Assembly: GCF_019443445.1 (NCBI RefSeq)
Contig: NZ_CP080378.1
Coordinates: 186,001-250,000, forward strand
Direction of reading: 5' to 3'
Source: Massilia sp. PAMC28688
GTDB lineage: Bacteria; Pseudomonadota; Gammaproteobacteria; Burkholderiales; Burkholderiaceae_D
DNA length: 64,000 bases
Shown: piece by piece, positions 19,979-42,400 of the stretch
Layout of the letters: the number at the start of each line of letters is the position of its first letter
Numbering within the stretch: position 1 is the stretch's first letter
The notes under the pieces: model-generated
Told to the model about the DNA's origin: nothing
The model's input: only the letters and a program-made list of their open reading frames with translations
Database searches by the model: none
Position numbers and translations under genes: made by a program

Positions 19979-20020
19979 AGGATGCGCCTGTCGCCTTGCT
20001 TTTTCTGTACGCCAGCGCAC
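19979..20020 (-). promoter_or_regulatory. promoter with GTRCG-N4-CGYAC site, glycine-zipper gene 19391
   Basis: On the minus strand the palindrome GTGCGCTGGCGTAC (20020-20007) is followed after exactly 22 bases by the -10-like hexamer CATCCT (19984-19979). The hexamer is weak, but keeps the A at position 2 and T at position 6. The leader is about 24 bases. Confidence 0.6.
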
Positions 20021-20032
20021 CTAGCAATTGCA

Positions 20033-20896
20033 TCATTGCCATTGACCATAACCGCCGGCGGCCCAGGGCGACGGCTCCGGCTGGGGCAGCCAGGCGCGCG
20101 GGTCCACGCGGTAGAACTTGAACAGTTCCTGGTACAGGGCGCCATGCTGCTCGGACAGTTGCCACGGCTTTTCAAAAAAGGTTTCGGTGGCCACGGCGAA
20201 GAACTCCGCCGGGCTGGTGGCGCCGTAATGGTCCATCACGCTGTGCTGGCGGTACAGGGCGTCGGCCTGCAGGCTGGCAAAGTCGCGCGAGAGCACGGCC
20301 GACCAGTTGCGGTAATTGTCTTCGCTGCCCAGGTAAGGCGCACCATTGTTGCTGCCCGATTCACTGTCGAGCTGGTGGGCAAATTCATGCAGGACCACAT
20401 TCTGGCCGTCGGTCCAGTCCGCTGCACCGCGCTGCACGTGGTCCCACGACAGGATCACCCGTCCGTCGCCCCAGGATTCGCCCAGCAGGTCCTGGCGCTC
20501 CTCGGTCACCACGCCCGCTTCGTCCACCTGCTTGCGCGGCACCATGAATGCGCTCGGGTACACCAGCACCGCATGCAGACCGGGATACACCCGGGTGGGC
20601 CGGTTGAGCAGCAACAGGCAGGCCTGGCCGGCAATGGCCACCCGCATCTCGTCCGTGATCTCCAGTCCCGCGCAGCCGACAAATTTTTTTTCGTGCAGAA
20701 ATTGCTGTATCAAGCCGTGCAGCTGATGCTGGAGATCACCGGACATCTGCTGGTAAATCGGCATGGTGCGCAGCAGCGTCGCGCGCCACGCAGCCGGCAG
20801 GGGACGGGCACGCACGCGCTTCACGCGCCAGCCCGGCAAGATGAACGCGAGCGCAATGCCCGCGCTTGCCACGGCAATCAAGAGCAGCACATCCAT
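20033..20896 (-). CDS. M90 family zinc peptidase (MtfA-like)
   Basis: 287 residues. One N-terminal membrane segment (residues ~3-21) is followed by the M90 domain: zinc motif HEFAHQLD and the typical Asp-rich segment around it (NVVLHEFAH, NGAPYLGSEDNYRNW, SPAEFFAVATETFFEKP). E. coli MtfA is a cytosolic zinc aminopeptidase that binds the regulator Mlc; this longer version carries a membrane anchor, as is usual in betaproteobacteria. Its ATG directly abuts the TGA of the upstream LLM-class oxidoreductase (no gap), so translation is coupled. Confidence 0.88.
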   Translation of the reverse strand: MDVLLLIAVASAGIALAFILPGWRVKRVRARPLPAAWRATLLRTMPIYQQMSGDLQHQLHGLIQQFLHEKKFVGCAGLEITDEMRVAIAGQACLLLLNRPTRVYPGLHAVLVYPSAFMVPRKQVDEAGVVTEERQDLLGESWGDGRVILSWDHVQRGAADWTDGQNVVLHEFAHQLDSESGSNNGAPYLGSEDNYRNWSAVLSRDFASLQADALYRQHSVMDHYGATSPAEFFAVATETFFEKPWQLSEQHGALYQELFKFYRVDPRAWLPQPEPSPWAAGGYGQWQ

Positions 20897-21910
20897 TCAG
20901 GCTTCCTGCTGAAGATGGAATTCCCGGGCGAGCAGGCGGTAGGAATGCAGCCGCACCTGCGGATCGTGGGCCCAGGTATTGACGACAATATGGTCGAGAC
21001 CGAGACTTGCCGCCAGTGCCCGGATCTGCGCGGCCACTTCCGGCCCGGTGCCCACCAGGGCATTGACGCGCAGCTGGTCTATGCGAGCCTGTTCGGCGGG
21101 GGAAAACGCATATGCGGCCGCTTCGTCCGGCGCCACCAGCGGACCGAGCAGGCCCTGCTCGAAGCGCACGCGCCAGTGTTCGCGCGTCATCAGCTGGCGC
21201 TCCGCCTCGGCCGTGCTGTCGGCGGCCAGCGCCCACACGCAGATGGTGGGACGCGCGCTGGGGAAGCGCTCGCTGGGGCGGTAATTCTGCCGGTACAGGT
21301 CGAGCGCCTGCTCCACGCCCAGGCCATCACTGAAGAAATAGGCAAAGGCATACGGCAATCCCAGGTGGGCAGCGAGCTGGGCCCCGTACCCGGAACTGCC
21401 GAGAATCCACATTTCCGGACTGGTCGGCCCTTGCGGCTGGGCCGTGATGGCACGGTAGGGATGGCCTTCGGGCAAGCGCTCGCCATCGAGCCAGCGCTGC
21501 AGGTCCGCGATCTGGCGCGGGAAATCATCGGCCGAGGGGCTGGCATGGGGATTGAGGGCGCGCGCTGTCAGGCGGTCGGACCCGGGCGCGCGGCCCAGGC
21601 CGAGGTCGATGCGCCCCGGCGCGATGGCTTCGAGCACGCGGAACTGCTCGGCCACCTTGAGCGCCGCATAATGGGGCAGCATGATGCCGGCACTGCCCAC
21701 CCGGATCCGGCGCGTGGTGGCCGCCACGGCCGCCATCAGCACTTCCGGCGCGCTGCCCACGATGCTGCTGCTGTTGTGGTGCTCGGAGAGCCAGTAGCGT
21801 TCGTAGCCGAGGCGGTCGCACGCGCGCGCCAGCGCCAGCGAGGCGGTGATGGCATCGGCCGGGGTGCTGCCCTTGGCGGCGGGCGACTGGTCGAGGACGG
21901 ACAGTTTCAT
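20897..21910 (-). CDS. LLM class flavin-dependent oxidoreductase
   Basis: 337 residues of the bacterial luciferase-like monooxygenase family. Typical segments: SVLDQSPAAKGSTPADAI at the start, YWLSEHHNSSSIVGSAPEV, IRVGSAGIMLPHYAALKVAE, LEAIAPGRIDLGLGRAPGSD and MWILGSSGYGAQLAAHLGLP. These TIM-barrel enzymes use reduced FMN or F420; in proteobacteria FMN is expected. The substrate is unknown. It is the second gene of an apparent operon: peroxiredoxin-glutaredoxin fusion, this gene, then MtfA-like peptidase. Confidence 0.9.
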   Translation of the reverse strand: MKLSVLDQSPAAKGSTPADAITASLALARACDRLGYERYWLSEHHNSSSIVGSAPEVLMAAVAATTRRIRVGSAGIMLPHYAALKVAEQFRVLEAIAPGRIDLGLGRAPGSDRLTARALNPHASPSADDFPRQIADLQRWLDGERLPEGHPYRAITAQPQGPTSPEMWILGSSGYGAQLAAHLGLPYAFAYFFSDGLGVEQALDLYRQNYRPSERFPSARPTICVWALAADSTAEAERQLMTREHWRVRFEQGLLGPLVAPDEAAAYAFSPAEQARIDQLRVNALVGTGPEVAAQIRALAASLGLDHIVVNTWAHDPQVRLHSYRLLAREFHLQQEA

Positions 21911-21919
21911 GACGGCCGA

Positions 21920-22675
21920 TCAGGGGTTCTGGCGCGCCGTCTTGAACCAGTTCTCCAGGGCGTCTGCATTGCCGATCAGCTTGCCGCCCATGAAGACCTG
22001 GGGCCAGGTCGATTCGCCCGAGACGGCGCGCAGCACGCTGGAATTGATTTTCTGATCCTGGGAAATTTCAGTGAACTTGATATCGTGCGACTTGAGCGCT
22101 TCCTTGGCGCGCGCGCAATGCGGGCAGCCAGGCTTGGAAAACACGACCACAGGTTCGGGAATCTCGGCGGCAGGATTGATATGGCGCAGCATGGTTTCAG
22201 CATCCGACACTTCAAACGGATCGCCGTCTTTTTCAGGCTCGATGAACGCCTTTTCGATAATCCCATCCTTGACCAGCATGGAATAGCGCCACGAGCGCAT
22301 GCCAAAGCCCAGGTTGCGCTTGTCCACCAGCATGCCCATGCCCTCGCTGAAGTCGCCATTGCCGTCAGGGATGACGGTAATGTTCTCTGCATCCTGGCCA
22401 TGCTTCCACTCGTTCATGACAAAGGCGTCGTTGACGGCCATGCAAATGATGTCGTCGACCCCGTTTTGGCGGAAGACAGGCGCCAATTCGTTATAGCGGG
22501 GCAAGTGCGTGGACGAGCATGTCGGCGTGTAGGCGCCGGGAAGGGAAAACACGACGACGGTCTTGCCCTTGAACAGATCGTCAGTGGTGATGTCCTGCCA
22601 CTGGTTGTCCGGGCGGGCCTTGAACGTCACCTTGGGTACGGGTTTGCCTTCCAGCGATTCAGGGGTCGGTAGCAT
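21920..22675 (-). CDS. peroxiredoxin-glutaredoxin fusion (hybrid Prx5/Grx)
   Basis: 251 residues from ATG 22675 with GAAAGGAA upstream. Residues ~1-165 are a Prx5-type peroxiredoxin with the peroxidatic Cys in LPGAYTPTCSSTHLP; residues ~175-251 are glutaredoxin with active site GCPHC and the glutathione-binding TWPQVFMGGKLIG. The fused enzyme reduces hydrogen and alkyl peroxides with glutathione and needs no separate thiol reductase. It starts an operon with the LLM oxidoreductase ten bases downstream. No OxyR-type site was recognised in the short upstream region. Confidence 0.93.
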   Translation of the reverse strand: MLPTPESLEGKPVPKVTFKARPDNQWQDITTDDLFKGKTVVVFSLPGAYTPTCSSTHLPRYNELAPVFRQNGVDDIICMAVNDAFVMNEWKHGQDAENITVIPDGNGDFSEGMGMLVDKRNLGFGMRSWRYSMLVKDGIIEKAFIEPEKDGDPFEVSDAETMLRHINPAAEIPEPVVVFSKPGCPHCARAKEALKSHDIKFTEISQDQKINSSVLRAVSGESTWPQVFMGGKLIGNADALENWFKTARQNP

Positions 22676-22805
22676 GACGGTATTCCTTTCGATATAGGGG
22701 GCGGGAGTGCGCCCGGCTTGCCATTCATGCACAAGTGGGGCCCCGCAACAGGATTTCAATCACCTTGCAAGGCTTGCCTGCAAGATATTTGCAGCCACAA
22801 TGGCG

Positions 22806-22829
22806 AAAGCCCGGACCAGCCGGGCTTTT
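22806..22829 (-). terminator. terminator downstream of winged-helix gene
   Basis: Stem AAAGCCCGG / CCGGGCTTT with a five-base loop, T-rich on both sides. It lies between the stop of the gene at 22865 and the promoter of the peroxiredoxin gene. Confidence 0.6.
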
Positions 22830-22864
22830 ACGACAGGGAAGGCATCCGGCCGGATGCCCTGCCA

Positions 22865-23479
22865 TCAGGACTGCTGTTCCTTGTTGGCCGAAGGCGCGGC
22901 GCCAAACAGGGCGGCGACCAGCGGATCGCGGGTGACCGGGCTGCGGTTGACGCGAATGGCATAGTGGGTGTCATCGGCCAGGATATGGAAGTGACGGCCG
23001 GTGCCTGCCATGCTTTGCTCGCGCAGGCCTGGACGCTCCTTGCGCGGGGCGGCACCTTCACGCTTCGGCTGCACAATGGCTGCCAGGAATGCCTTGACGC
23101 GCTCAGGGTCGGGCGAAATCTGGTACACGGCCTTGCCCAGGTAGGTGGCGGTGCCTTCAATATAGCGCGCCAGTTCGATAACGCCGGCTTCGCGCAGGTC
23201 ACGGATGTACTTGCGTGCGCCGGAAGGCGAGAATTTCAGGAACCATGCGATCTCGTCGGCCAGCATTTCGTGGGTGGACAGTTCGCCAATCAGTTTTTGC
23301 ATGTTCTCGATACGACGCTGCGTGGCCGAGGTGGAGCGCACACGCTCGATGGGTGCCATCGAGATGGGTGGGCGTTCCGCTGGCTGTGGCGCGACGCGTT
23401 CGATGAGGGAAGAATTTGCGGTGTGAACTGCCGTCAGATCGCCTTGTGCCACGTTACGCTGGTTGTTTGATGCATGCAT
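22865..23479 (-). CDS. winged-helix DNA-binding protein, unknown regulator
   Basis: 204 residues from ATG 23479, chosen because GGAG lies eight bases upstream; an ATG ten codons earlier (23509) has no ribosome site. The central part looks like a winged helix (ADEIAWFLKFSPSGARKYIR, DLREAGVIELARYIEG), the C-terminal part is basic and includes REGAAPRKERPGLREQS and a His-rich strand. It lacks a signal peptide and looks cytosolic, so DNA binding is likely. I do not recognise a named family. It is divergent from a collagen-like lipoprotein gene, whose promoter region it shares. Confidence 0.65.
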   Translation of the reverse strand: MHASNNQRNVAQGDLTAVHTANSSLIERVAPQPAERPPISMAPIERVRSTSATQRRIENMQKLIGELSTHEMLADEIAWFLKFSPSGARKYIRDLREAGVIELARYIEGTATYLGKAVYQISPDPERVKAFLAAIVQPKREGAAPRKERPGLREQSMAGTGRHFHILADDTHYAIRVNRSPVTRDPLVAALFGAAPSANKEQQS

Positions 23480-23825
23480 GTTGAGTACTCCGTCAGAGAA
23501 GATAGTCATTGGACCGGTCCCGGCTCGTATCGTTTGACAGCCTGACAACACAAGGGTTCCGTCCTTCTTGGGAGCATATTGCCTGCGCCAGATCAACAGT
23601 TCTGTGCGCCATCGAACGTTCGAGCACAATTTACTTCCGCCCGTCATCTTTTTTAAGATTTGCAAAATCGCCACAGCAGATCGCTGCAATGTGCGTTGAC
23701 GTACAGATGAGGGTGACGGGAGTACGTACTCTGGCCCTGTTCGCGCGATAGTGCGTGTGCAACGAAAAATCGAAGTCCAGTCCGCCTGCCATATGGCATG
23801 TGACACTTTATAAAAGGAAACCACC
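23480..23825. other. 346-bp divergent intergenic region with several palindromes
   Basis: It holds a perfect 10-bp palindrome GGACCGGTCC at 23511-23520 just upstream of the winged-helix gene, the GTGCGTTGACGTAC site at 23691-23704, a perfect 12-bp palindrome GAGTACGTACTC at 23720-23731 overlapping the -10 hexamer, and an AT-rich block CACTTTATAAAAGG (23805-23818) just before the lipoprotein start. Confidence 0.6.
23691..23732 (+). promoter_or_regulatory. promoter with GTRCG-N4-CGYAC site, collagen-like lipoprotein
   Basis: Palindrome GTGCGTTGACGTAC (23691-23704), exactly 22 bases, then -10-like TACTCT (23727-23732). The expected leader is about 87 bases. The same hexamer and nearly the same 14-mer stand before the BON lipoprotein at 37082. 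Confidence 0.7.
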
Positions 23826-24095
23826 ATGAAAATGACCACCCTCTGTGCCGCACTGCTGGCTGTCGCCACTCTGTCCGCCTGCGAAAAAACCACCGTCAAC
23901 CCAGCACCAACCGTCGTGACCCCGGCCGTTGAAGTGCCAGTTGCTGCCCCGGCGCCCGTCGAAGTACCCGTACCGGTACCAGGCCCTGCCGGTGAGCCAG
24001 GCGCTCCCGGCGCCACCGGTGCACCTGGCACCCCAGGCGAGCCAGGCAAGGATGGCGACACCGTCATCGTTGTGCCAGAAAACAAGCCTAACTAA
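23826..24095 (+). CDS. small lipoprotein with collagen-like tail
   Basis: 89 residues. Signal peptide with lipobox TLSAC gives a lipid-anchored protein of about 70 residues. The mature part is a Pro/Val-rich stalk followed by a short collagen-like run of Gly-X-Y triplets (GPAGEPGAPGATGAPG, then TPGEPGKDG) and an acidic/valine end. The eight-triplet run is too short for a stable triple helix on its own; it may be a spacer. AAAGG lies ten bases upstream and a terminator follows. The upstream site places it in the inferred Crp/Fnr regulon. Confidence 0.82.
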   Translation: MKMTTLCAALLAVATLSACEKTTVNPAPTVVTPAVEVPVAAPAPVEVPVPVPGPAGEPGAPGATGAPGTPGEPGKDGDTVIVVPENKPN

Positions 24096-24116
24096 GACTC
24101 CGGTCTAGTTCCCAGG

Positions 24117-24150
24117 CGCCGCCGCCTCCTTCGGGACGCGGCGGCGTTTT
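24117..24150 (+). terminator. Rho-independent terminator of the collagen-like lipoprotein gene
   Basis: Nine-base GC stem CGCCGCCGC / GCGGCGGCG with a 12-base loop and a T4 tail, 22 bases after the stop. Confidence 0.85.
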
Positions 24151-24252
24151 GCTTTCCGCAGCGTTTTACACGATTTTTGCCTCAGCCCGCAGGCCACGCT
24201 GAACTCATCCCGTCCTCCCCCAGTCGAACAGGGCACGCAATTGCGATGTCGC

Positions 24253-24259
24253 CTACACT
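24253..24259 (+). promoter_or_regulatory. sigma-S-like -10 element CTACACT of the OmpA-like gene
   Basis: CTACACT followed by T-rich sequence, 25 bases before the GTG start. No recognisable -35 and no GTRCG palindrome upstream. Confidence 0.45.
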
Positions 24260-24284
24260 TTTTGACAACAATAGGGGAGTTTTC

Positions 24285-25319
24285 GTGAAAAAAATCCATC
24301 AGACCGTCAGCGCCGTCGTCCTGTCCTGTTGCCTCGCCTCAGCCCTTGCACAGGACATGGTCAATCCCTCCTGGTATTTACAGCCCCATGTGAGCGTGGC
24401 CCGCCCAGACCCCGACTTCGGCGTGGACGAACGCGACTACGGCGCGGGGATGCGACTTGGCAAACCCGTGCATCAGCACTGGGATATGCAGGTCGCTCTG
24501 AGCCAGCTGCGCGCCGAGGATGCAGGGCGCCGCTACCACCAGACCCTGCTCGAACTGGACGCCCTGCTGCTGGTCTCGCGCGGGCATTTCCGCCCTTTCC
24601 TCCTGTTCGGCCTTGGCGCCCAGCGCGACAAGGTGGAAAACCCGCTGCGCAGCGTGGGCCGCAATTCACCGTTTGCCACTGCGGGGCTGGGGTTCCAGTG
24701 GGCCATGGGTGATCGCTGGTCCATGCAAGCAGACTTGCGTACCGTGCGCGGCTGGCTGCGCGACGAAGAACTGTTCGGCATGAGCCGCAGCAATAATAAA
24801 TACTTGTCCTTCGGCCTCAACTACGCACTCAGTCCCCCGCCGGCACCGCCGGCGCCGCCCCAGCCTGCTCCGGCCCCGTTGCCCGCCGCCCCCGTGGCGG
24901 AGACGCCACCACCACCGCCCCCACCGGCACCGCCGCGCTTTGAAAAAGTCACCTTGTCGGCCACCGAGTTGTTTGCGTTTGACAGCGCCAGCCTGTCCCT
25001 GCCCCAGCCGCGCCTCGATGCCATTGCCGCGGCGCTGCAGGCAGACCCCGGCATTACCGACGTCGACATCATCGGTTACGCCGACCGCCTCGGCTCTGCC
25101 GACTACAATCTGCGCCTGTCCGAGCGGCGCGCCAACGCCGTGCGTGCCTACCTGATCGGCAGGGGCGTCGACGGCGGCCGCCTCCAGGCTCACGGGCGGG
25201 GCGAGGCCAATCCTGTCGTCATCTGCGACAACAAAAACCGGCAAGAACTCATTCAGTGTTTGGAACCGAACCGACGGGTGGAGGTCGAGCAGATTACAGT
25301 GGAGCGTCGCGTGCCCTAG
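24285..25319 (+). CDS. OmpA family outer-membrane protein
   Basis: 344 residues from GTG 24285, supported by GGGGAG six bases upstream and by a signal peptide directly after it (VKKIHQTVSAVVLSCCLAS, cleavage after ALA). Residues ~25-185 should form an eight-strand barrel (SWYLQPHVSVARPDPDFG, PFATAGLGFQWAMGDRWS). A proline-rich linker follows, then an OmpA peptidoglycan-binding domain (IDIGYADRLGS-type segment, YNLRLSERRANAVRAYL, with the conserved Asp and Arg that hold diaminopimelate). It links outer membrane and cell wall. Two Cys residues near the C-terminus (ICDNKN, IQCLEPNRR) likely form a disulfide, as in OmpA. Confidence 0.9.
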   Translation: MKKIHQTVSAVVLSCCLASALAQDMVNPSWYLQPHVSVARPDPDFGVDERDYGAGMRLGKPVHQHWDMQVALSQLRAEDAGRRYHQTLLELDALLLVSRGHFRPFLLFGLGAQRDKVENPLRSVGRNSPFATAGLGFQWAMGDRWSMQADLRTVRGWLRDEELFGMSRSNNKYLSFGLNYALSPPPAPPAPPQPAPAPLPAAPVAETPPPPPPPAPPRFEKVTLSATELFAFDSASLSLPQPRLDAIAAALQADPGITDVDIIGYADRLGSADYNLRLSERRANAVRAYLIGRGVDGGRLQAHGRGEANPVVICDNKNRQELIQCLEPNRRVEVEQITVERRVP

Positions 25320-28238: not shown

Positions 28239-28790
28239 CTATTTGGCGAATTGCGTCTTGGCCGCTGCCACGCAGCCATCCTTGGCGGCACCGGCGAAGG
28301 CATCACATTTTTCCATCGCCACCTTGAACTCGGCTTCGCGCTTGTCTTCACGCGCATCGGCCCTTGCTTCAATGGCGCGCTTGTCCGCCTTGGCATCGGC
28401 CTGGGCCGCCACCAGGGTGGCCTTGGCCTGGGAAACGCAGACGTCCTTTGGATTGCCGGTCAGTCCTGCGCATTTGACCTTGTCCAGGTCATAGTGTGCC
28501 GACGCGATTTTCATGCGCGAAGCAGTGTAGGCTTTCAGCGTATTCTTGTACAGGGCCGTGGCTTCTTCAACCGTGCGCACCTGCGCCGCCTTCGCTTCTG
28601 CCACACAAATGTCCTTGGGATTGCCGGTAATCAAGTCGCAGCGGGCGCGCGCGACCTTGTAATCGGCCTTGGCACGGTCCTTGGCATGGGTATAGGCAGC
28701 CTTGGCTTCGGCGCTCGGGCCTGCGTGAACGAGGCCGGCACCGGCCAGGGCCAATGCCACCAGGGTGATCTGTAAGCTCGTATGTGTCAT
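28239..28790 (-). CDS. secreted helical protein with three Cys-pair repeats
   Basis: 183 residues from ATG 28790 (GGAG upstream). A signal peptide (LVALALAGAGLVHA) is followed by a charged helical protein containing three copies of a Cys-x8/9-Cys unit: CDLITGNPKDICVAEAKA, CAGLTGNPKDVCVSQAKA and CDAFAGAAKDGCVAAAKT, spaced by ~50-60 residues of Ala/Lys/Asp-rich helix. Each Cys pair probably forms a disulfide in the periplasm. Similar proteins occur in Burkholderiales without known function. A full palindromic site and TACAAC -10 lie immediately upstream, so it is one of the best-supported members of the inferred regulon. Confidence 0.82.
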   Translation of the reverse strand: MTHTSLQITLVALALAGAGLVHAGPSAEAKAAYTHAKDRAKADYKVARARCDLITGNPKDICVAEAKAAQVRTVEEATALYKNTLKAYTASRMKIASAHYDLDKVKCAGLTGNPKDVCVSQAKATLVAAQADAKADKRAIEARADAREDKREAEFKVAMEKCDAFAGAAKDGCVAAAKTQFAK

Positions 28791-28821: not shown

Positions 28822-28863
28822 GTTGTACGGGATTTGGCCGCTCGTATCTGTACGGTGCCGAAC
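28822..28863 (-). promoter_or_regulatory. promoter with GTRCG-N4-CGYAC site, Cys-repeat protein
   Basis: On the minus strand GTTCGGCACCGTAC (28863-28850), exactly 22 bases, then -10 TACAAC (28827-28822); the leader is about 25 bases. The 14-mer differs by one base from the site before the phospholipase D gene. On the plus strand no -10 is found at the matching distance, so the site points to the minus gene. Confidence 0.75.
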
Positions 28864-34224: not shown

Positions 34225-34611
34225 TTATTTGGTGTTGGCGCGGTCAAGTTCCTCGCGCAGCACCCGCAAGTCGTTATTGAGCGCATCGGCAGCGGCAGTG
34301 GCCTTGGCCGAGCGCGACTTGCTCTGCGCCAGCCGGGCATCAGCCTGGGCCTGGGCGGCAAGGTCACGCGCCAGGGTGTAGTCGCGGGCCGCCAGGGCGG
34401 CGTTGGCGCGTACCATCTTTTCGCGCGCTGCATTGATTTCCATCGGGGCCAGCTCGGCGGCGCCGGCACTGACGGCGTTTTCCACGGCATTCCTGGTCAC
34501 CGCCACATCGGCCGTGGCAGGCGCCTTTTCGGGACTGGTGCAGGCTGCCAGCGCAAGCACGGCACCGGCACAGGCCAGACGGCTCAGCTGCGTCAGAGTT
34601 GGATGGGTCAT
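34225..34611 (-). CDS. DUF4398 lipoprotein, first gene of envelope-stress operon
   Basis: 128 residues from ATG 34611 with AGGAGA seven bases upstream. Lipobox ALAAC, then one DUF4398 unit: ELAPMEINAAREKMVRANAA, DYTLARDLAAQAQADARLAQ and a helical C-terminus. It is a short paralogue of the next gene without its OmpA domain. The promoter upstream (palindrome plus TATAAC) should drive this gene and the five that follow (to 31468), with gaps of 59, 15, 55, 18 and 18 bases. Confidence 0.88.
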   Translation of the reverse strand: MTHPTLTQLSRLACAGAVLALAACTSPEKAPATADVAVTRNAVENAVSAGAAELAPMEINAAREKMVRANAALAARDYTLARDLAAQAQADARLAQSKSRSAKATAAADALNNDLRVLREELDRANTK

Positions 34612-34647: not shown

Positions 34648-34689
34648 GTTATATGCTGATTCTTTAACAATATCCGTACGCTGGCGCAC
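34648..34689 (-). promoter_or_regulatory. promoter with GTRCG-N4-CGYAC site, DUF4398-OmpA-ferritin-YqjD-YqjE operon
   Basis: On the minus strand GTGCGCCAGCGTAC (34689-34676), exactly 22 bases, then a good -10 TATAAC (34653-34648). The leader is about 30 bases. It faces away from the AsmA promoter, whose own palindrome starts 36 bases on the other side. Confidence 0.8.
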
Positions 34690-34725: not shown

Positions 34726-34767
34726 GTGCGGCAGCGCACGAAAAGGGGCCAGGCATCGGTCTACACT
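34726..34767 (+). promoter_or_regulatory. promoter with GTRCG-N4-CGYAC site, asmA-like gene
   Basis: GTGCGGCAGCGCAC (34726-34739, perfect 5-bp arms), exactly 22 bases, then TACACT (34762-34767, within CTACACT). The ATG follows 28 bases later. Confidence 0.8.
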
Positions 34768-34794: not shown

Positions 34795-36957
34795 ATGACT
34801 GACGCTGCAGCGACCGCACCGGGCGCCGGATCCGGCAACCATGCCCCGCCCCCCCGCAAACGCCCGATGAGCAGAAACACCAAGGTCATCCTGTGGGTGC
34901 TTGGCCTGCTCATTGCCATCCCCGCCATTGCGCTGGTGATCCTGCTGACCTACGACTGGAACAAGGCGCGTCCCTGGCTCAACGCCAAAACCAGTGAAGC
35001 GATCGGGCGCGAATTTGAAATCCGGGGCGACCTGTCGCTGACCTGGGAAAAGCCGGCCAGCCGCATGGCTGGGCGCGACAAGACCTGGCGCGACTGGATT
35101 CCCTGGCCGCACCTGGTGGCCAAGGATGTCCGGGTCGGCAATCCCGAAGGCATGGCCAGGGAAAACATGGCCCATGTGGACCAGTTCTCGTTTTCGCTCA
35201 ACCCGCTGGCCCTGCTCGACAAGCGCATCGTGGTGCCGGTGCTGCGCTTTGCCGCGCCCGATGTCAACCTGGTGCGCCTCAAGGACGGCACCAACAACTG
35301 GACCTTCAAGCACGAGAACAAGCCCTCGCCGTGGCGGCTGGACGTGGAACGGGTGGTATTCACCAAGGGCGTGGTGCGTTACCGCGACGCCATCGAGCAA
35401 GCCGACATCACGGCCGACGTCGATCTGCTCGAGCGCGATCCCACCTACGGCGTGGGCTGGAAAGTGCGCGGCACCTTCAACGACGCGCCCGTGACCGGCT
35501 CGGGCAAGGCCGGCGCCGTGCTCTCGCTCAAGCAGCAGCTCACCCCCTATCCCTTGCAGGGCGACGTGCGCATTGGCGCCGTGCGCATTGCCGCCGAGGG
35601 CACGCTGACCAAGCCCACGCGCCTGGCCGCCCTCGACTTCAAGCTCAAGCTGGCCGGACCGAGCATGGCGCGCCTGTACCCGATCATCGGGGTGGTGCTG
35701 CCGGAAACCCCGGCCTTTTCCACGGAAGGCCGCCTGCTGGCCGCGCTCGATGATGAGAGCAGCCGCTGGGACTATGACAAGTTCCGCGGCAAGGTCGGCT
35801 CCAGCGACATTGGCGGCCAGCTCGTGTACCAGACCGGCAAGCCGCGCGGCAAGCTGACCGGCAATGTCGTCTCCAGCCTGCTGCAGTTTGCCGACCTGGG
35901 CCCCCTGATTGGCGCCGACTCCAATGCCAGCAAGACTGCGCGCGGCGTGGCGCCGGTGCAGCCGTCGGGCAAGGTGCTGCCGGTGGAAACCTTCCGCACC
36001 GGGCGCTGGACTGCCATCGATGCCGACGTGCGCTATTCGGCCAGCCGCATCATCCGTGACGAAGCGCTGCCCATCCGCAAGCTGAGCACCCACCTGATTC
36101 TCAAGAACGGCGTGCTCCATCTCAATCCCCTCACCTTCGACATGGCCGGCGGCACGCTCAGTTCCGTCATCAAGCTCGATGGCAGCGGGCGCGAAGGCAA
36201 GAATGCCATCCGCGCCACGGCCAACGTCAATGCGCGCCGCATCAAGATCAAGGAACTGTTCCCCACCATTCCGGACATGCAGGCCACCATTGGCGAGATC
36301 AACGGCGACGCCCGGCTGTCGGCCACGGGCAACTCGGTGGCCTCGCTGCTGGCTGCCTCCAACGGTGAAGTCAAGACCATGATCAACCAGGGTGCCGTCA
36401 GCAAGCTGCTGCTTGAAAAGATGGGCCTCAATATCGGCAACATCATCCTGACCACCCTGTTTGGCGACAAACAGGTCAAGCTCAATTGCATGGCCACCGA
36501 CTTCGGCGTGCGCGATGGGGTGATGCAGACCCGCGTGTTCGTGGTCGACACCGAGGAAGCCTTGATCACGGCGGACGGCACCATCAACCTGGCGACCGAG
36601 CAGATCAACATGACCTTGCGTCCGCGCACCAAGGGCTTGCGCATCGTGTCGCTGCGCGCGCCGCTGTATGTGCGCGGCCCCTTCAAGCAGCCTGATGTAA
36701 GCGTGGACAAGGGTGTGCTGGCCATGAAGGCCGGCGGCGCCATTGCCCTGGGCCTGGCCGCGCCCCTGGCGGCCCTGCTGCCCCTGATCAACGCCGGACC
36801 GGGCAAGGACAGCGATTGCGCCCGCCTGCTGGCCATGGCGAGCGAAAAGCCGCAAGCCCCGCCGCCCGGCAAGACGGCAGCGAACAGTGCCGCCCGGCTC
36901 CCCATCGCAGGCCCGAATGCACAGAATGTGGTACCGCGCGCAACACGTGGCCGGTGA
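34795..36957 (+). CDS. AsmA family inner-membrane protein
   Basis: 720 residues from ATG 34795; upstream codons have no ribosome site. One N-terminal membrane helix (KVILWVLGLLIAIPAIALV) is followed by a large periplasmic region with AsmA features: a beta-rich N-part with LRFAAPDVNLVRLKDGTNNW and the C-terminal AsmA_2 part (KIKELFPTIPDMQATIGEIN, GEVKTMINQGAVSKLLLEKM, LITADGTINLATEQINMTLR). AsmA-like proteins (YhdP, TamB, YdbH relatives) form grooved bridges that move phospholipids between membranes. Under its own palindromic promoter, it fits an envelope lipid-homeostasis role. Confidence 0.92.
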   Translation: MTDAAATAPGAGSGNHAPPPRKRPMSRNTKVILWVLGLLIAIPAIALVILLTYDWNKARPWLNAKTSEAIGREFEIRGDLSLTWEKPASRMAGRDKTWRDWIPWPHLVAKDVRVGNPEGMARENMAHVDQFSFSLNPLALLDKRIVVPVLRFAAPDVNLVRLKDGTNNWTFKHENKPSPWRLDVERVVFTKGVVRYRDAIEQADITADVDLLERDPTYGVGWKVRGTFNDAPVTGSGKAGAVLSLKQQLTPYPLQGDVRIGAVRIAAEGTLTKPTRLAALDFKLKLAGPSMARLYPIIGVVLPETPAFSTEGRLLAALDDESSRWDYDKFRGKVGSSDIGGQLVYQTGKPRGKLTGNVVSSLLQFADLGPLIGADSNASKTARGVAPVQPSGKVLPVETFRTGRWTAIDADVRYSASRIIRDEALPIRKLSTHLILKNGVLHLNPLTFDMAGGTLSSVIKLDGSGREGKNAIRATANVNARRIKIKELFPTIPDMQATIGEINGDARLSATGNSVASLLAASNGEVKTMINQGAVSKLLLEKMGLNIGNIILTTLFGDKQVKLNCMATDFGVRDGVMQTRVFVVDTEEALITADGTINLATEQINMTLRPRTKGLRIVSLRAPLYVRGPFKQPDVSVDKGVLAMKAGGAIALGLAAPLAALLPLINAGPGKDSDCARLLAMASEKPQAPPPGKTAANSAARLPIAGPNAQNVVPRATRGR

Positions 36958-36969
36958 ACGGAAGATTAT

Positions 36970-37012
36970 GTGCGTTGCCGTACAGACCGGATTGTCTGGT
37001 TGGCACTACTCT
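36970..37012 (+). promoter_or_regulatory. promoter with GTRCG-N4-CGYAC site, BON lipoprotein 37082
   Basis: GTGCGTTGCCGTAC (36970-36983), 23 bases (22 if the hexamer is taken one base earlier), then TACTCT (37007-37012). The 14-mer differs by one base from the site at 23691. Confidence 0.7.
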
Positions 37013-37081: not shown

Positions 37082-37393
37082 ATGAAAAACCTGCGCATCG
37101 TATCCTCCCTGTTGGCTGCAATGATGTTGACCACCGTTGTTGGCTGCGCGCCAACGGCCAAGACCGAAAGCGTTGGCGAGTACGTCGATGACAGCCTGAT
37201 CACCGCTGGCGTGAAATCGGCTTTCGCGATCGACCCAACCCTGAAGGCAACGGAAATCAACGTCGAGACCTACAAAGGTGTAGTACAGCTGAGCGGCTTT
37301 GTTGCCCAAAGCTCCGACATCGCCAACGCGACCAATGTGGCACGCAGCGTCAAGGGCGTGAAGTCGGTCAAGAACGACATCCGCATGAAGTAA
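37082..37393 (+). CDS. BON-domain lipoprotein
   Basis: 103 residues. Signal peptide with lipobox TVVGC, then a single BON domain (YVDDSLITAGVKSAF, INVETYKGVVQLSGFV, VKSVKNDIRMK). It is the paralogue of the protein at 27814, similar over its whole length. AAGGA lies before the ATG. It is cotranscribed with the glycine-zipper lipoprotein 30 bases downstream and closed by the terminator at 37671. Role by family: binds phospholipid and supports the outer membrane in osmotic stress. Confidence 0.92.
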   Translation: MKNLRIVSSLLAAMMLTTVVGCAPTAKTESVGEYVDDSLITAGVKSAFAIDPTLKATEINVETYKGVVQLSGFVAQSSDIANATNVARSVKGVKSVKNDIRMK

Positions 37394-37670: not shown

Positions 37671-37699
37671 GGGCCCGCTGATGCGGGCCCTTATTTTTT
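37671..37699 (+). terminator. Rho-independent terminator of the BON/OsmB-like operon
   Basis: Stem GGGCCCGC / GCGGGCCC with a four-base loop, followed by TTATTTTTT. It separates this operon from the convergent Crp/Fnr gene. Confidence 0.92.
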
Positions 37700-37741
37700 G
37701 GTGCAGTGGAAAAACGCCGGCGCTGCGCTGCAGCCCGGCGA

Positions 37742-38476
37742 TCAGACAAAGGCAGTGGTCGATGGCACGACGGCCCCGGCATCCTTGACGATTTCGTAGC
37801 ACTTGCACGATGCGGCTGCCAGGCCGGGCACATCGAGAATCTCGATATTGCCGCGGCTGTAGATGATCAGGCCCTGCTGCTGCAAGGCGCTGGCCGCCTT
37901 GGTCACGCCCACGCGGCGCACGCCCAGCGCATGGGCCAGAAATTCGTGCGTGAGGTGGAATTTGTCGGCCTGCACCCGGTCGCGCGTGATCAGCAGCGAA
38001 CGGGCCAGGCGCGCCTCGAGCACGTGGAAGCGGCTGCACACGGCAATCTGGATGGCTTGCGCCAGCAGGCTGTCGGTGTAGCGGTACAGCACCCGCTGCA
38101 AGGCCGGATTGCGCGCGAACTCGGTGCGAAAGCGCGCGCTGCTCATGCGCGAGGCGGTGCCGGCGCGCTGCACGATGGCGCGCACCTGCGACACGTCGTG
38201 GCCAAGGGCCACCGTGGCGCCGAGCATGCCCTCGCGCCCCACCAGTCCCACTTCGAGCGTCATGCGCCCTTCGGCCACGCCGAGCAGGGAAATCAGGCTA
38301 TCGTTGGGAAAGTAGATGTGGCGAATCGGTGCGCCCGGTTCGGACAGCACTTCGCCTACCTCAAGCGGTACCGGTTCAAGCGCGTTCGCCAGGCGTGCCA
38401 GGTCGGCCGCTGGCAAGGCTGCAAGCAGCATGTTCGCGCCGGGATGTGCAACTTCGAGGGACGACACGATACTCAT
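37742..38476 (-). CDS. Crp/Fnr family transcriptional regulator
   Basis: 244 residues. Residues ~17-130 form the cyclic-nucleotide-type beta-roll (HIYFPNDSLISLLG, LVGREGMLGATVALG), ~130-160 the dimer helix, ~168-215 the helix-turn-helix (HEFLAHALGVRRVGVTKAAS). No Fnr-type Cys cluster and no cAMP-contact Arg-Ser pair is visible, so the ligand is unknown. In the recognition helix the Glu that reads TGA in Crp (181) and Fnr (209) is replaced by Val (GVRRVGVTK), which predicts a different DNA half-site. It sits in the middle of the envelope-stress block and has a matching palindrome (38618-38631) upstream. It is the best candidate to bind GTRCG-N4-CGYAC. Confidence 0.9.
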   Translation of the reverse strand: MSIVSSLEVAHPGANMLLAALPAADLARLANALEPVPLEVGEVLSEPGAPIRHIYFPNDSLISLLGVAEGRMTLEVGLVGREGMLGATVALGHDVSQVRAIVQRAGTASRMSSARFRTEFARNPALQRVLYRYTDSLLAQAIQIAVCSRFHVLEARLARSLLITRDRVQADKFHLTHEFLAHALGVRRVGVTKAASALQQQGLIIYSRGNIEILDVPGLAAASCKCYEIVKDAGAVVPSTTAFV

Positions 38477-38589
38477 GTTGTGCTCCCACTGACGCTGCGC
38501 AGATTGTCATTACGGTTAATACGGATGGCAGTCATTGGGTACGTAATCTATTGGTGGTGCGCAGATACATTTACAAACAATTTTCAATC

Positions 38590-38659
38590 AGACTACCGGT
38601 AATAATAGGTAAGGTATGTACGGTGACGCACGGAAGCGCCCGTCCCTTGACTGGACAAT
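38590..38659. promoter_or_regulatory. shared palindrome between crp/fnr-like gene and glycine-zipper gene
   Basis: One palindrome, GTACGGTGACGCAC (38618-38631), has a -10-like hexamer at exactly 22 bases on both sides: TAGTCT on the minus strand (38595-38590), toward the Crp/Fnr gene, and GACAAT on the plus strand (38654-38659), toward the glycine-zipper gene at 38756. Both hexamers are weak; leaders would be about 107 and 90 bases. It suggests self-regulation of the Crp/Fnr gene. Confidence 0.6.
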
Positions 38660-38755
38660 GGCCAGCGTCAAATTGGTATGGCGCCTGTCCTGCCAGGCGA
38701 CGCCGCCCGCGTCGCGATCGACCGTAAGACATCCAACAACAATAAAGGAAGCTCC

Positions 38756-39577
38756 ATGAACACTCCCCTCCATCACCCGCACACACCGGCCGCCCGCACG
38801 CGCCAGCATCCCATGATGATGCTGGCCGCGCTGGCCGTCATCGTGTTTTGCCTGGCCGGCACGGCAGCCATCCTGGGCTGGATTCCCAGCTCCTTCGGCG
38901 GCGCCAGCTCGGGCGAACTGACCGCCAGCGACCGCGCCGCCCTGGCCTCACGCCTGGCTGACACGGCCAGCCCGCCGCCCGGCGCCGGCAACCTGGCGCC
39001 CTCGCGTGACAATGAACGCCTGGCCCTGCTCGACAGCGAGCGCGCAAGCAGCGAGCGCCTGCACGCGGAACGCGAACGTGAACTGGCCGACCTCGAACGC
39101 GAGCGCAGCCTGGAACGCGAACGCGCGCTGGCCGATCTCGAGCGCGAGCGCGCACGCGACCGGGCACTGGCAGCGGCGCGCGAACGCGACACCGAGCCGG
39201 TCGTGCGCGAACGAGTGGCCCAGGCCGCGCCCAAGGCCACCTGCAGCAATTGCGGCCGCGTGATCGGCGTGCGTACCATCAAGCAGCGCGCCGAAGGCAG
39301 TGGCCTGGGCGCCGCCGGCGGGGCCGTGCTGGGGGGCCTGCTGGGCAACCAGATTGGTGATGGCAGTGGCCGCAAGATCGCTACCGTGGCCGGTGCCGTG
39401 GGTGGCGCCGTGGTGGGCAACCAGGTGGAAGGCAATATGAAAGCGCGCACCAGCTACCAGGTCAGCGTGCGGCTGGACAATGGCAAAGAGCGCAGCTTCA
39501 CGCTGCAAAACCTGAATGGCTTTTCCAGCGGCGACCGCATTCGCATCGTCGATGGCAGCCTGCGCCACGCCAACTGA
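38756..39577 (+). CDS. glycine-zipper 2TM protein with membrane anchor and coiled coil
   Basis: 273 residues from ATG 38756 (AAAGGAAG upstream). One N-terminal membrane helix (MLAALAVIVFCLAGTAAILG), a strongly charged Glu/Arg/Leu coiled coil (~85-150, repeats of LERERALADLERE type), a Cys pair CSNCG, a glycine zipper (GLGAAGGAVLGGLLGNQIG, ATVAGAVGGAVVGNQVEG) and the same small C-terminal beta domain as the lipoprotein at 28981 (YQVSVRLDNGKERSFTLQN, GDRIRIVDGSL). It looks like a SlyB-type module placed on an inner-membrane anchor with a periplasmic stalk. Divergent from the Crp/Fnr regulator. Confidence 0.85.
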   Translation: MNTPLHHPHTPAARTRQHPMMMLAALAVIVFCLAGTAAILGWIPSSFGGASSGELTASDRAALASRLADTASPPPGAGNLAPSRDNERLALLDSERASSERLHAERERELADLERERSLERERALADLERERARDRALAAARERDTEPVVRERVAQAAPKATCSNCGRVIGVRTIKQRAEGSGLGAAGGAVLGGLLGNQIGDGSGRKIATVAGAVGGAVVGNQVEGNMKARTSYQVSVRLDNGKERSFTLQNLNGFSSGDRIRIVDGSLRHAN

Positions 39578-39658
39578 AACAGCGCCCCTGTGCCCGCCAA
39601 GGCACATGCTTACTTTGTAAGAATATATTGCGAATAGGACAAAAAATTGGCGGGCAGT

Positions 39659-39700
39659 GTACGCTAACGTACGGAATCGGGAAGGTGAAGAATGGATACT
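39659..39700 (+). promoter_or_regulatory. promoter with GTRCG-N4-CGYAC site, Lmo0937-type gene
   Basis: GTACGCTAACGTAC (39659-39672, perfect 5-bp arms), exactly 22 bases, then GATACT (39695-39700). The leader is about 56 bases. Confidence 0.78.
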
Positions 39701-39762
39701 GCATCCATCGACTGCTGCAGGCATTGAACGGTCGTCTATAACAACCCACCGAGGACAAAATC

Positions 39763-39909
39763 ATGCTTTATACAATCGCTGTCGTACTGTTGATCCTGTG
39801 GCTGCTCGGCCTGGTCACATCCTACACCGTGGGTGGATTCATCCACATTCTGCTGGTCGTTGCCGTCATCATGATTCTGGTGCGTCTGATCAGTGGCAGA
39901 GGCATATAG
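39763..39909 (+). CDS. Lmo0937-family 48-residue membrane protein
   Basis: 48 residues: MLYTIAVVLLILWLLGLVTS, a short Tyr-Thr-Val-Gly-Gly turn and a second hydrophobic helix (FIHILLVVAVIMILVRLI). This matches the Lmo0937-type (DUF5670) tiny two-helix membrane proteins, function unknown, often stress-induced. GAGGA lies nine bases before the ATG. It has its own palindromic promoter and is followed after 106 bases by an OmpA-family gene that may be read from the same transcript. Confidence 0.88.
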   Translation: MLYTIAVVLLILWLLGLVTSYTVGGFIHILLVVAVIMILVRLISGRGI

Positions 39910-39922
39910 TTTTGCAGCACCT

Positions 39923-39992
39923 GGTCATCATGTGATGACCGATCCGTTTCGCGGTCGTGCCCGGCTGACCGCGGTGTGACAGCGAAACGGAT
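39923..39992. repeat. three nested/adjacent inverted repeats before the OmpA/glycine-zipper gene
   Basis: GGTCATCA-tg-TGATGACC at 39923-39940; an 11-bp outer pair ATCCGTTTCGC (39942-39952) / GCGAAACGGAT (39982-39992); and inside it CGCGGTC / GACCGCG (39950-39956 / 39967-39973). No T-run follows, so they are not a standard terminator; they may form a structured leader or operators for the gene at 40016. Confidence 0.7.
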
Positions 39993-40015
39993 TCAATATT
40001 CAAGGAGAACTCTAG

Positions 40016-40678
40016 ATGAAGAAAAATATTGCTAAAACATTCGTTGGGGTCGCCGTCCTCTCCCTCGCAGCCGGTTGTGCCGACATGTCGGCCACCCAGC
40101 GCGGTACCGCTACCGGTGCCGGCGTCGGTGCAGGTCTCGGTGCCATCCTGGGCGGTACCACGGGCGGCGGCGGCGGTGACCGCGCAGCCAAAGGCGCCGT
40201 GCTGGGCGGCGCGGCCGGTGCGATCATCGGCAACATCTGGTCGACCCGCATGGAAAAGCAAAAGCAGGAAATGGAAGCTGCCACGCGCGGCACCGGCATC
40301 GAGGTCAGCCAGACCTCGGACAACCGCCTCAAGCTCGCCATTCCGGCCGACGTCTCGTTCGACACCGGCCGTTCGGACATCAAGTCCAACTTCCGCCCCG
40401 TGCTTGAGCGCTTCGCCCAGACACTCAATGACAATCCGGCGACCACGGTGTCCATCATTGGCCACACCGACAGCACCGGCAGCGATGCCATCAACAATCC
40501 CCTGTCGGTCGACCGTGCCGCCCGCACCCGCGACTTCCTGGCGCAGCGCGGCGTGTCGCCTAACCGCGTGATGATCGACGGCCGTGGCGAGCGCGAGCCG
40601 ATCGCCTCCAACGACAGCGATTCCGGCCGTGCGCGCAACCGCCGCGTCGAAATCTACGTGGCAGAACGCCAGGGCTGA
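40016..40678 (+). CDS. OmpA-family lipoprotein with glycine zipper (YiaD-like)
   Basis: 220 residues, AAGGAG seven bases upstream. Lipobox SLAAGC, a glycine-zipper hairpin (TGAGVGAGLGAILGGTTGG, GAVLGGAAGAIIGNIW), a charged linker, then an OmpA C-terminal domain (VSFDTGRSDIKSNFRPVL, VSIIGHTDSTGSDAINNPLS, RARNRRVEIYV). YiaD-type proteins sit in the outer membrane and bind peptidoglycan; E. coli YiaD suppresses envelope-assembly defects. It lies 106 bases after the Lmo0937-type gene, behind three inverted repeats, and ends in a terminator. Confidence 0.92.
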   Translation: MKKNIAKTFVGVAVLSLAAGCADMSATQRGTATGAGVGAGLGAILGGTTGGGGGDRAAKGAVLGGAAGAIIGNIWSTRMEKQKQEMEAATRGTGIEVSQTSDNRLKLAIPADVSFDTGRSDIKSNFRPVLERFAQTLNDNPATTVSIIGHTDSTGSDAINNPLSVDRAARTRDFLAQRGVSPNRVMIDGRGEREPIASNDSDSGRARNRRVEIYVAERQG

Positions 40679-40700
40679 TCCCCGCGCTTGGGCGCCTATG

Positions 40701-40736
40701 AACCGGCATCACGCGTTTGCGGATGCCGGTTTTTTC
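40701..40736 (+). terminator. Rho-independent terminator after YiaD-like gene
   Basis: Stem AACCGGCATC / GATGCCGGTT, 11-base loop, T7 tail. Confidence 0.9.
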
Positions 40737-40815
40737 TTGGGCGCCCTGTGCGGCGCCGCTGGCCTGACGGTATTCCAGGCGCGAAGTTAACGATGCAAAA
40801 AGAATAAAAACTGGA

Positions 40816-40822
40816 CTACACT
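40816..40822 (+). promoter_or_regulatory. sigma-S-like -10 element CTACACT of the DUF3617 gene
   Basis: CTACACT lies 23 bases before the ATG. No palindrome of the GTRCG class is upstream. Confidence 0.45.
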
Positions 40823-40845
40823 GCAGGTTCACCCGAGGAGCCGAT

Positions 40846-41412
40846 ATGAAAACCACACTGATTGCCGCGACCCTGTTTTCCGCCGCCCTGTGCGCCGCCC
40901 AGGCGTCGGCCCAGACCCTCAGGCCCGGCCTGTGGGAAATCAGGTCCAGCACGCCCGGCGGCGCCGGCAGCGGCAAGGCCATGGCCGAGCACATGGCGCG
41001 CATGAAAAAGGAAATTGCCGCCATGCCGGCCGCGCAGCGCCAGCAGATGGAAGCGGCGCTGGCAGGCCAGGCAGCGAGCGCGCTCCAGTTCACCGACGAC
41101 GGCATGATCATGAAGCATTGCATCACCCCGGATGATGTAGCCGCAATGGACAAGCTGATCATCAAGGAAGGCGGCTGCACCACCCAGCGCTCGCCCATGA
41201 TCGGCGGCGTGGTCAAGATGAACATGAGCTGCACCACCCCGCCGTCGACCGGCAACGGCACCATTCGCTTCAGCGGCGATACCGCCTATACCATGGAGAT
41301 GACGATGAATACGCGCTTCCAGGGCCAGAACCATACCGCCAAGGTCAGCAGCTCCGGCAAGTGGCTGGCCAGCAGCTGCGGCAAGGTCAAGCCGGTGCCG
41401 CGCGCCCGATAA
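40846..41412 (+). CDS. DUF3617 family secreted protein
   Basis: 188 residues. Signal peptide (LIAATLFSAALCAAQASA, cleavage before QTLRPG), then the DUF3617 pattern LRPGLWEIRSSTPGG, a helical insert with many Met/Gln, CITPDDVAAMDK, and two further Cys (GGCTTQRS, MNMSCTTPP) that may form disulfides. The function of this periplasmic family is unknown. CGAGGAG lies upstream. Its stop codon directly abuts the stop codon of the convergent aminotransferase gene, with no base between them. Confidence 0.88.
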   Translation: MKTTLIAATLFSAALCAAQASAQTLRPGLWEIRSSTPGGAGSGKAMAEHMARMKKEIAAMPAAQRQQMEAALAGQAASALQFTDDGMIMKHCITPDDVAAMDKLIIKEGGCTTQRSPMIGGVVKMNMSCTTPPSTGNGTIRFSGDTAYTMEMTMNTRFQGQNHTAKVSSSGKWLASSCGKVKPVPRAR

Positions 41413-42249
41413 TCAGCTGGCCTCGGTAAAAGCCAGGTAGCGTTCGCGCGCGAGGGTGGCAACCGGCCCGATCGGCAGGGTGCGCTCCTCGTAGCGCACG
41501 CAGGGCGTCACCTTGCCATAGTTGCCGGTACTAAAAATCTCCAGTGCCGTGTCCAGTTCGGCCGGCTGCACGGTGCGCTCCTCCACCGCCACGCCCGCCT
41601 CGGCCAGCAAGCGCAGCACGCGCGCCCGGGTAATCCCCGCCAGGAAAGTTCCGTTGGGAACCGGGGTCACCACGGCTCCGGAGGCAGTGACAAGGAACAG
41701 GTTGGACGTGGCAAACTCCGCCACCGCGCCGGCGCTGTCGCGCACGACCGCATTGTCGAATCCCCGCGTTTTGGCCTCGCGCAGCACCCGCGTCGAGTTG
41801 GCGTACAGGGCCGAAGCCTTGGCATCGGTGGGCGCCATGTTGGCATCAGGCCGGCGCAGGGGCGACAGGCAGGCGGCAAAACCGGTAAAAGGCGGCATCG
41901 GCGCGTCGAACAGCGTGAGCGCAAAGCCGCTGTGCTGCGCTTCCGGAATGAGAAAGCCCTCACGGCCAAAGACCAGGGGACGGATATACAGATCGGCGTC
42001 CGGGGCAAAGCGCGCCACGCCTTCGCGCGAGAGCGCCTCCATTTCCTCGACCGTCACGGGGCAGCGCAGGCCAAGCCGTTCGGCTGACTGCACCACGCGC
42101 GCCAGATGCGGGCGCAGGTCGGGCAGGCGCCCGGCAATGGCGCGCGCGCCATCGAACACGGACGAGCCGAGCCACAGGCTGTGATCCATGGCCCCATACA
42201 GCGGCACATTGCCTTCCGCCCAGCTTCCCTGGTAATAGGTCAGGTACAT
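41413..42249 (-). CDS. class IV aminotransferase (branched-chain/D-amino-acid type)
   Basis: 278 residues from ATG 42249 (GGGGAAC upstream). The PLP lysine is in DAKASALYANSTRVLREA, the fold-type IV signature is VAEFATSNLFLVTASG and phosphate binding is in FLAGITRARVLRLL. YQGSWAEGNVPLYGAMDHSL at the start resembles IlvE-like enzymes. It transfers the amino group of branched-chain amino acids (or D-amino acids or aminodeoxychorismate chemistry in relatives) to 2-oxoglutarate. The sequence alone does not settle which, so no symbol is given. Divergent from the phospholipase D gene. Confidence 0.86.
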   Translation of the reverse strand: MYLTYYQGSWAEGNVPLYGAMDHSLWLGSSVFDGARAIAGRLPDLRPHLARVVQSAERLGLRCPVTVEEMEALSREGVARFAPDADLYIRPLVFGREGFLIPEAQHSGFALTLFDAPMPPFTGFAACLSPLRRPDANMAPTDAKASALYANSTRVLREAKTRGFDNAVVRDSAGAVAEFATSNLFLVTASGAVVTPVPNGTFLAGITRARVLRLLAEAGVAVEERTVQPAELDTALEIFSTGNYGKVTPCVRYEERTLPIGPVATLARERYLAFTEAS

Positions 42250-42348
42250 GGTGTTCCCCAAAAAATAGTCTGCGGCGAGTGTATCAAAATGGCGCGGAAA
42301 CGGAACGTGTCGCATTTTCGGCGCTAAAAAGGATTCTGGGCAACATCG

Positions 42349-42400
42349 GTACGGGTGCGTTCGGTACCGTACGAAGACCAATGAGTTCCCCCAGTACACT
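42349..42400 (+). promoter_or_regulatory. promoter with overlapping GTRCG-N4-CGYAC sites, phospholipase D gene
   Basis: GTTCGGTACCGTAC (42359-42372), exactly 22 bases, then TACACT (42395-42400). A second near-match, GTACGGGTGCGTTC (42349-42362), overlaps it with its centre 10 bp upstream, so two dimers could compete or cooperate. The leader is about 31 bases. Confidence 0.75.

Follow-up and report, generated by a model that had tools for sequence, protein, structure and literature searches.

A 14-base-pair (bp) palindrome, GTnCG-N4-CGnAC, is repeated at a fixed distance from -10-like hexamers within a 64,000-nucleotide stretch of the 5.46-Mb genome of Massilia sp. PAMC28688 (positions 186001-250000; herein referred to as the window, in whose numbering all feature coordinates are given), and the cluster of genes preceded by the palindromes has at its middle a gene for a regulator of the Crp/Fnr superfamily (37742-38476). 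We consider it very probable that the palindrome is the operator of a dimeric Crp/Fnr activator encoded by 37742-38476, which would act in the class II manner on genes for envelope and stress proteins. What the computation shows is the site with its fixed spacing and its conservation, a tie between the site and a protein subfamily, and the Crp/Fnr fold of the regulator.

The original prediction for this DNA had listed nine palindromes, all of which lie exactly where it placed them, with CA, TG or TA at the centre and with the named -10-like hexamers at 22 bp toward the next gene (23 bp for the palindrome at 36970 alone); its tally of nine was too low, as two further matches stand at 7992 and 23604. 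It had also put the chance level at one or two per 64 kb, and shuffling bears this out: GTNCGNNNNCGNAC has 11 matches in the window against a mean of 2.04 and a maximum of 6 in 100 dinucleotide shuffles, none of which reached 11 (0/100). Ten of the genome's 164 matches fall inside 20007-42372 (22.4 kb), where 0.67 would be expected at the genome density.

The arrangement recurs around orthologues of the regulator gene. Across 80 loci (the best 80 of 144 orthologues found, mostly from Massilia and Janthinobacterium; 1.52 Mb in total), the palindrome occurs 585 times against 49.6 expected and ranks first for over-representation among 2816 gapped palindromes; 547 of these sites are centred on CA, TG or TA, and the reversed-centre control (AC, GT or AT) gives four sites, one of them intergenic. 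By our own gene calls, 539 of the 547 sites are intergenic, and 442 of the 539 have a -10-like hexamer (a score of 3.5 or more on our own scale, either strand) at a gap of 22 bp, with 9 to 87 at each of the 23 other gaps between 12 and 35. The regulator gene is preceded by a site that has its -10 at 22 or 23 bp in 78 of the 80 loci; a simpler search, limited to 350 bp from the open frame of the regulator, finds a site in 73. By the former count, the number of loci is 75 for the DUF4398 gene, 69 for the lmo0937-family gene, 61 for the 38756-type gene, 51 each for the 28239-type and 28981-type genes and 44 for the 34795-type gene. This per-gene tally used a slightly stricter pattern with 542 sites (five within called genes and 46 assigned to no gene) and 577 site-gene pairs, 74 of which have no homologue in the window.

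Elsewhere in the same genome, 35 palindromes with a CA, TG or TA centre lie outside the window. Among the 32 examined (three TA-centre sites were left out) 22 are intergenic; a -10 stands at gap 22 in 14 of these, the other gaps averaging 1.1 (binomial P about 2e-13, assuming independent sites). In a composition-matched control over the whole genome, TG/TA/CA centres reach 56 strand-counts and AC/AT/GT centres 19. At gap 22 or 23, the outside sites are followed by genes for, among others, DUF3606, transglycosylase-associated, BON-domain, L,D-transpeptidase and glycine-zipper proteins; four of the ten scanned have no Pfam family. Three expectations of the original prediction are borne out, namely enrichment upstream of genes, fixed -10 spacing and a recurrence of both across the genome and among relatives; the palindrome also stands out against shuffles of the window, against the other gapped palindromes and against the reversed-centre control.

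Within the 80 loci, 451 sites have a -10-like hexamer at gap 22; aligned, they show TnT ahead of the core and AKA behind it, a -10 of the form TAnAMT with a G after it, and, at the expected -1/+1 positions, C-A (55% and 65%); the extended form of the operator is approximately TnTGTDCG-n-YR-n-CGHACAKA. Because the hexamer chose and oriented these sites, only the flanks and the C-A pair count as independent signs. A start at this C-A pair would place the centre of the palindrome at -41.5, the position claimed originally, and the peak at gap 22 in the genome and in relatives agrees with the fixed spacing that was claimed with it. In a second locus set (59 of 60 loci used, L189 being left out as no helix matched; four of the 60 from the same family), 47 of 221 oriented sites have TANNNT at gap 22, with 0 to 6 at the other gaps from 10 to 40, and the C-A pair is partial or absent. 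Class II sites of the Crp/Fnr superfamily are inverted repeats centred at -41.5; an inverted repeat with a fixed spacing to the -10 is observed here, at a position relative to the start that is predicted from sequence, and the 37742-38476 protein is a candidate to bind it. We hypothesize that a dimer of the 37742-38476 protein occupies the palindrome centred at -41.5, replaces the -35 element and recruits RNA polymerase to the TAnAMT-type -10, which would amount to class II activation rather than repression. Its regulon would consist of cell-envelope, lipoprotein-like and small stress-protein genes, both in the cluster and elsewhere in the genome; the claim of envelope-stress targets is borne out for most of them at the level of protein family, and a role in stress is presumed.

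The original prediction named no regulator. The product of 37742-38476 matches Pfam HTH_Crp_2, a Crp-type helix-turn-helix domain, at 53.3 bits (cut-off 27), an NCBIfam search gives no family for it at E 0.001, and the nearest solved structures by profile are NtcA proteins (E 4.6e-13). Its predicted structure (predicted local distance difference test, pLDDT, 89.7; predicted template modelling score, pTM, 0.84) has a beta-roll sensor domain, a long helix and a C-terminal helix-turn-helix, as in the Crp/Fnr superfamily, and fits GlxR, CRP, NtcA and FNR along most of its length. The promoter region of the gene itself carries the site, which strengthens the class II Crp/Fnr reading and makes autoregulation probable. 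According to excerpts of PMC11253593, Arg180 of CRP contacts the G of TGTGA, and Glu181 and Arg185 contact the next G:C. At these positions (180/181/185), alignment to NtcA gives Arg, Val and Lys in the regulator and Arg, Val and Arg in NtcA, and the GT of the palindrome lies as far from the dyad as the GT within TGTGA (CRP) and within GTAN8TAC (NtcA). The residues of the recognition helix thus fit binding of the palindrome, without proving it.

The regulator has exactly three cysteines (147, 224 and 226). The set Cys147-His151-Cys224-Cys226 is complete in 142 of 161 sequences (the regulator included) and takes the form Cys-Cys-Cys-Cys in one; the remainder are two fragments and 16 sequences that miss at least three of the four residues. 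These 16 include both paralogues of the same genome and clusters of close relatives, so the independent losses are fewer than 16, and in an overlapping set rich in close orthologues the Cys/His set is present in 196 of 203. That the four residues are kept or lost jointly, with one His-to-Cys swap, suggests a common metal, iron-sulfur or thiol site, through which the regulator may sense its signal, rather than through cyclic AMP (cAMP).

Over 200 genomes of the order, the excess of sites tracks the presence of the regulator. Strand-counts for TG/TA/CA against AC/AT/GT centres, uncorrected for genome size, are 755 against 346 (median difference 17.5) in 22 genomes where a relative with the valine-type recognition helix (Val type) was seen, 1051 against 746 (median difference 6.5) in 42 genomes with another strong relative and 604 against 502 (median difference 3) in 37 genomes with weak matches only, the Val-type status of a genome being known solely where its locus was fetched. 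Site by site, 24 of the 26 sites of genome G164 (same family, no relative at E 0.001) were examined, of which two are intergenic and none has a -10 at gap 22, and 21 of the 48 sites of genome G088 (another family, with relatives) were examined, of which 15 are intergenic and eight have one; this comparison covers these two genomes, a single one of them regulator-less. In the second locus set, which also holds two loci with neither Val-type nor glutamate-type (Glu-type) relatives, the palindrome ranks first at the 10 loci with Val-type relatives only (28 against 3.8 expected) and at the 15 loci with both types (82 against 6.8). Farther afield, 29 short loci around phylum-wide relatives hold 19 palindromes and 0 controls (5 of the 19 sites come from the five loci that overlap loci of the other sets), and three of the site-bearing loci belong to another class (G262, G266 and G307); 20 loci (~73 kb) around relatives that are further removed, and that for the most part have other helices, gave 0 palindromes and 0 controls.

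Three observations stand beside these counts. Genome G014, which has no relative, shows 92 against 6 strand-counts on its own, with 80 TR-centre palindromes forward and 12 reverse, perhaps a repeat and unconnected with this regulon. Relatives of the regulator are frequently grouped, two to four per 20 kb (L140, L155, L133 and other loci). The pattern CAnAC-N4-GTnTG, which ranks first at loci with Glu-type relatives only, was dropped as a coding artefact because most of its 55 places lie inside the regulator coding sequence (at the same frame position and with the same flanks), a CA/TG/TA centre occurs in only three of the 55, and there is no -10 peak.

Several points weigh against the regulator of the cluster as the reader of the palindrome, or against the counts that favour it. 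The 99 genomes without a relative still show an excess (1201 against 873, median difference 1), and the 32 loci with Glu-type relatives only have the site too (rank 2, 50 against 11.5 expected). Counts over the 80 loci are not independent, because the loci are related; both the -10 scale and the gene calls are simple; 97 of the 539 intergenic sites (about one fifth) have no -10-like hexamer at 22; and the regulator-less side of the site-by-site comparison has a sample of one. A Val/Glu swap in the helix was considered as a code for operator base 3 and rejected, the expected change being absent; as this swap in relatives leaves base 3 unmarked, no specificity code is claimed. Additionally, the genome encodes two more members of the regulator's subfamily (at 4.35 and 5.45 Mb), and these, together with the sites at Glu-type-only loci, leave the paralogues as candidate binders.

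It is accordingly conceivable, though improbable, that the palindrome is read chiefly by the paralogue at 4.35 or 5.45 Mb, or by several members jointly, with the cluster gene merely a target. Relatives of both types do have the palindrome near their own gene, and one palindrome (genome position 4353492) stands directly upstream of the 4.35-Mb paralogue; however, this copy has no good -10 at 21-24 bp toward the paralogue, both paralogues have a different helix (RRESIT) and lack three of the four Cys/His residues, and it is the genomes with an observed Val type that show the greatest excess of sites. That the element ends at about -35 and keeps a fixed spacing to the -10 would also suit a long -35-like part of an alternative sigma factor promoter instead of an operator, which we regard as very unlikely: conservation extends to both half-sites and to the pyrimidine-purine centre, the flanks are roughly symmetric, the copy at 38618 can serve two divergent -10s, and the presence of the element goes with that of a Crp/Fnr gene. 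Genome-wide, the bare pattern does not exceed its backward control (164 against 295 per strand; pyrimidine-purine centres 60 against 76), which counts against the proposed operator and in favour of a chance or repeat-driven build-up of a GC-rich word. Such a build-up can nevertheless be practically dismissed: the matched-centre control stands at 547 against 4, and the -10 peak falls at a single gap in separate places of the genome.

The palindromes, hexamers and putative targets of the proposed activator encoded by 37742-38476 are collected in the table. An eleventh palindrome (7992-8005), flanked by genes 7171-7824 (-) and 8102-8881 (+), lacks a good -10 at 22 bp and is possibly due to chance. 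A scan of 19000-44000 against Rfam found nothing that reached the gathering score.

Table. Palindromes, -10-like hexamers, putative target genes and regulator gene in the window
Feature	Position	Strand	Remark
Palindrome	20007..20020	-	Upstream of gene 19391-19948
-10-like CATCCT	19979..19984	-	22 bp from 20007 palindrome
Putative target, glycine-zipper protein, 185 residues	19391..19948	-	Two Pfam glycine-zipper matches, both under curated cut-off
Palindrome	23604..23617	-	CAATAT at 22 bp; gene 22865-23359 (-) next, 244 bp off
Palindrome	23691..23704	+	Upstream of small lipoprotein-like open reading frame 23826-24095
-10-like TACTCT	23727..23732	+	22 bp from 23691 palindrome
Putative target, 89-residue lipoprotein-like open reading frame, Gly/Pro-rich tail	23826..24095	+	Missed by our own gene caller
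Palindrome	28850..28863	-	Upstream of gene 28239-28790
-10-like TACAAC	28822..28827	-	22 bp from 28850 palindrome
Putative target, 183 residues, signal-peptide-like start	28239..28790	-	No Pfam family at E 0.001
Palindrome	34676..34689	-	Upstream of gene 34225-34611
-10-like TATAAC	34648..34653	-	22 bp from 34676 palindrome
Putative target, DUF4398 protein	34225..34611	-	Family search
Palindrome	34726..34739	+	Upstream of gene 34795-36957
-10-like TACACT	34762..34767	+	22 bp from 34726 palindrome
Putative target, AsmA family protein	34795..36957	+	Family search
Palindrome	36970..36983	+	Upstream of gene 37082-37393
-10-like TACTCT	37007..37012	+	23 bp from 36970 palindrome
Putative target, BON-domain protein	37082..37393	+	Score below NCBIfam OsmY cut-off
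Crp/Fnr-family regulator, 244 residues, recognition helix GVRRVGVTK, Cys147/His151/Cys224/Cys226 set	37742..38476	-	Proposed to bind the palindrome; Pfam, fold, alignments
Palindrome, divergent promoter region	38618..38631	.	Between regulator 37742-38476 (-) and gene 38756-39577 (+)
-10-like TAGTCT toward regulator gene	38590..38595	-	22 bp from 38618 palindrome
-10-like GACAAT	38654..38659	+	22 bp from 38618 palindrome
Putative target, glycine-zipper 2TM protein	38756..39577	+	Family search
Palindrome	39659..39672	+	Upstream of gene 39763-39909
-10-like GATACT	39695..39700	+	22 bp from 39659 palindrome
Putative target, lmo0937-family membrane protein (DUF5670)	39763..39909	+	Family search
Palindrome	42359..42372	+	Upstream of gene 42438-43826
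-10-like TACACT	42395..42400	+	22 bp from 42359 palindrome
Putative target, phospholipase D-like protein	42438..43826	+	PLDc_2 and PLDc matches

We advance, as a tentative and somewhat doubtful generalization, that GTnCG-N4-CGnAC is the recognition sequence of a widespread Crp/Fnr subfamily, which would control envelope and general-stress genes as a regulon in Burkholderiales and in other Pseudomonadota. The signal would be sensed at a metal, iron-sulfur or thiol site of the type Cys3His (once Cys4), to which the dimer helix, at its end, and the C-terminal tail contribute, a design that differs from the sensors of FNR and CRP. If true, this would supply a binding code, a regulator and a list of targets for proteins annotated merely as Crp/Fnr family or CRP-like, would place many envelope proteins of the DUF and glycine-zipper kinds under one switch, and would make the co-conserved Cys/His set a mode of sensing new within a textbook family. 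Promoters of the class II Crp/Fnr kind are already known; no description of the operator, the regulon or the putative sensor turned up in a weak literature search, in which 'Crp/Fnr' could not be matched as a term, so that novelty is not established. Searching by the spelling of the motif returned no paper, and searching by paired target families returned unrelated papers only; in the available portion of the regulon survey PMC5343134 the words 'Crp' and 'FNR' do not occur.

Among the closest known systems, NtcA has several features in common with the one proposed here. Passages of PMC3898017 describe an NtcA operator GTAN8TAC that lies at about -41.5 in canonical activated promoters and, in one case, 22 nt from the -10; a 14-bp dyad of the form GT...AC, a centre at about -41.5 (as predicted here) and a -10 of the type TAN3T are common to both systems, as are Arg-Val at the base-reading positions (by alignment), and a profile comparison with solved structures gives NtcA as the best match. 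Unlike in NtcA, the core here is GTnCG-N4-CGnAC, with CG at positions 4-5 and a pyrimidine-purine centre, and position 3 is not fixed (A 31%, G 56%, T 13% and C 0% in the upstream half of the aligned sites), so that the sites do not conform to GTAN8TAC. The two proteins share about 20% identity, and the putative targets here belong to envelope and stress families, whereas NtcA responds to 2-oxoglutarate and has nitrogen targets.

FNR reads TTGAT-N4-ATCAA and carries an iron-sulfur site of four cysteines, three of which are near the N-terminus. The half-site of GTnCG-N4-CGnAC is other than TTGAT, and the three cysteines of the regulator (147, 224 and 226) are not the FNR set. The TGTGA half-site of E. 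coli CRP, GlxR and MtbCRP is likewise absent here, and Glu181 and Arg185 are replaced. The cAMP pocket of CRP-type proteins, GlxR included, is built on Glu and Arg-Ser/Thr, and in a profile alignment, at the level of sequence, the GlxR stretch with the cAMP-binding Glu and Arg-Thr/Ser is not kept in the regulator. DdrI of Deinococcus (8yz7) and SdrP of Thermus (TTHA1359, 2zcw) are also among the closest systems; DdrI binds the CRP consensus TGTGA-N6-TCACA and has R-E-T-V at the place of R-V-G-V in the regulator described here, which would read GTnCG-N4-CGnAC.

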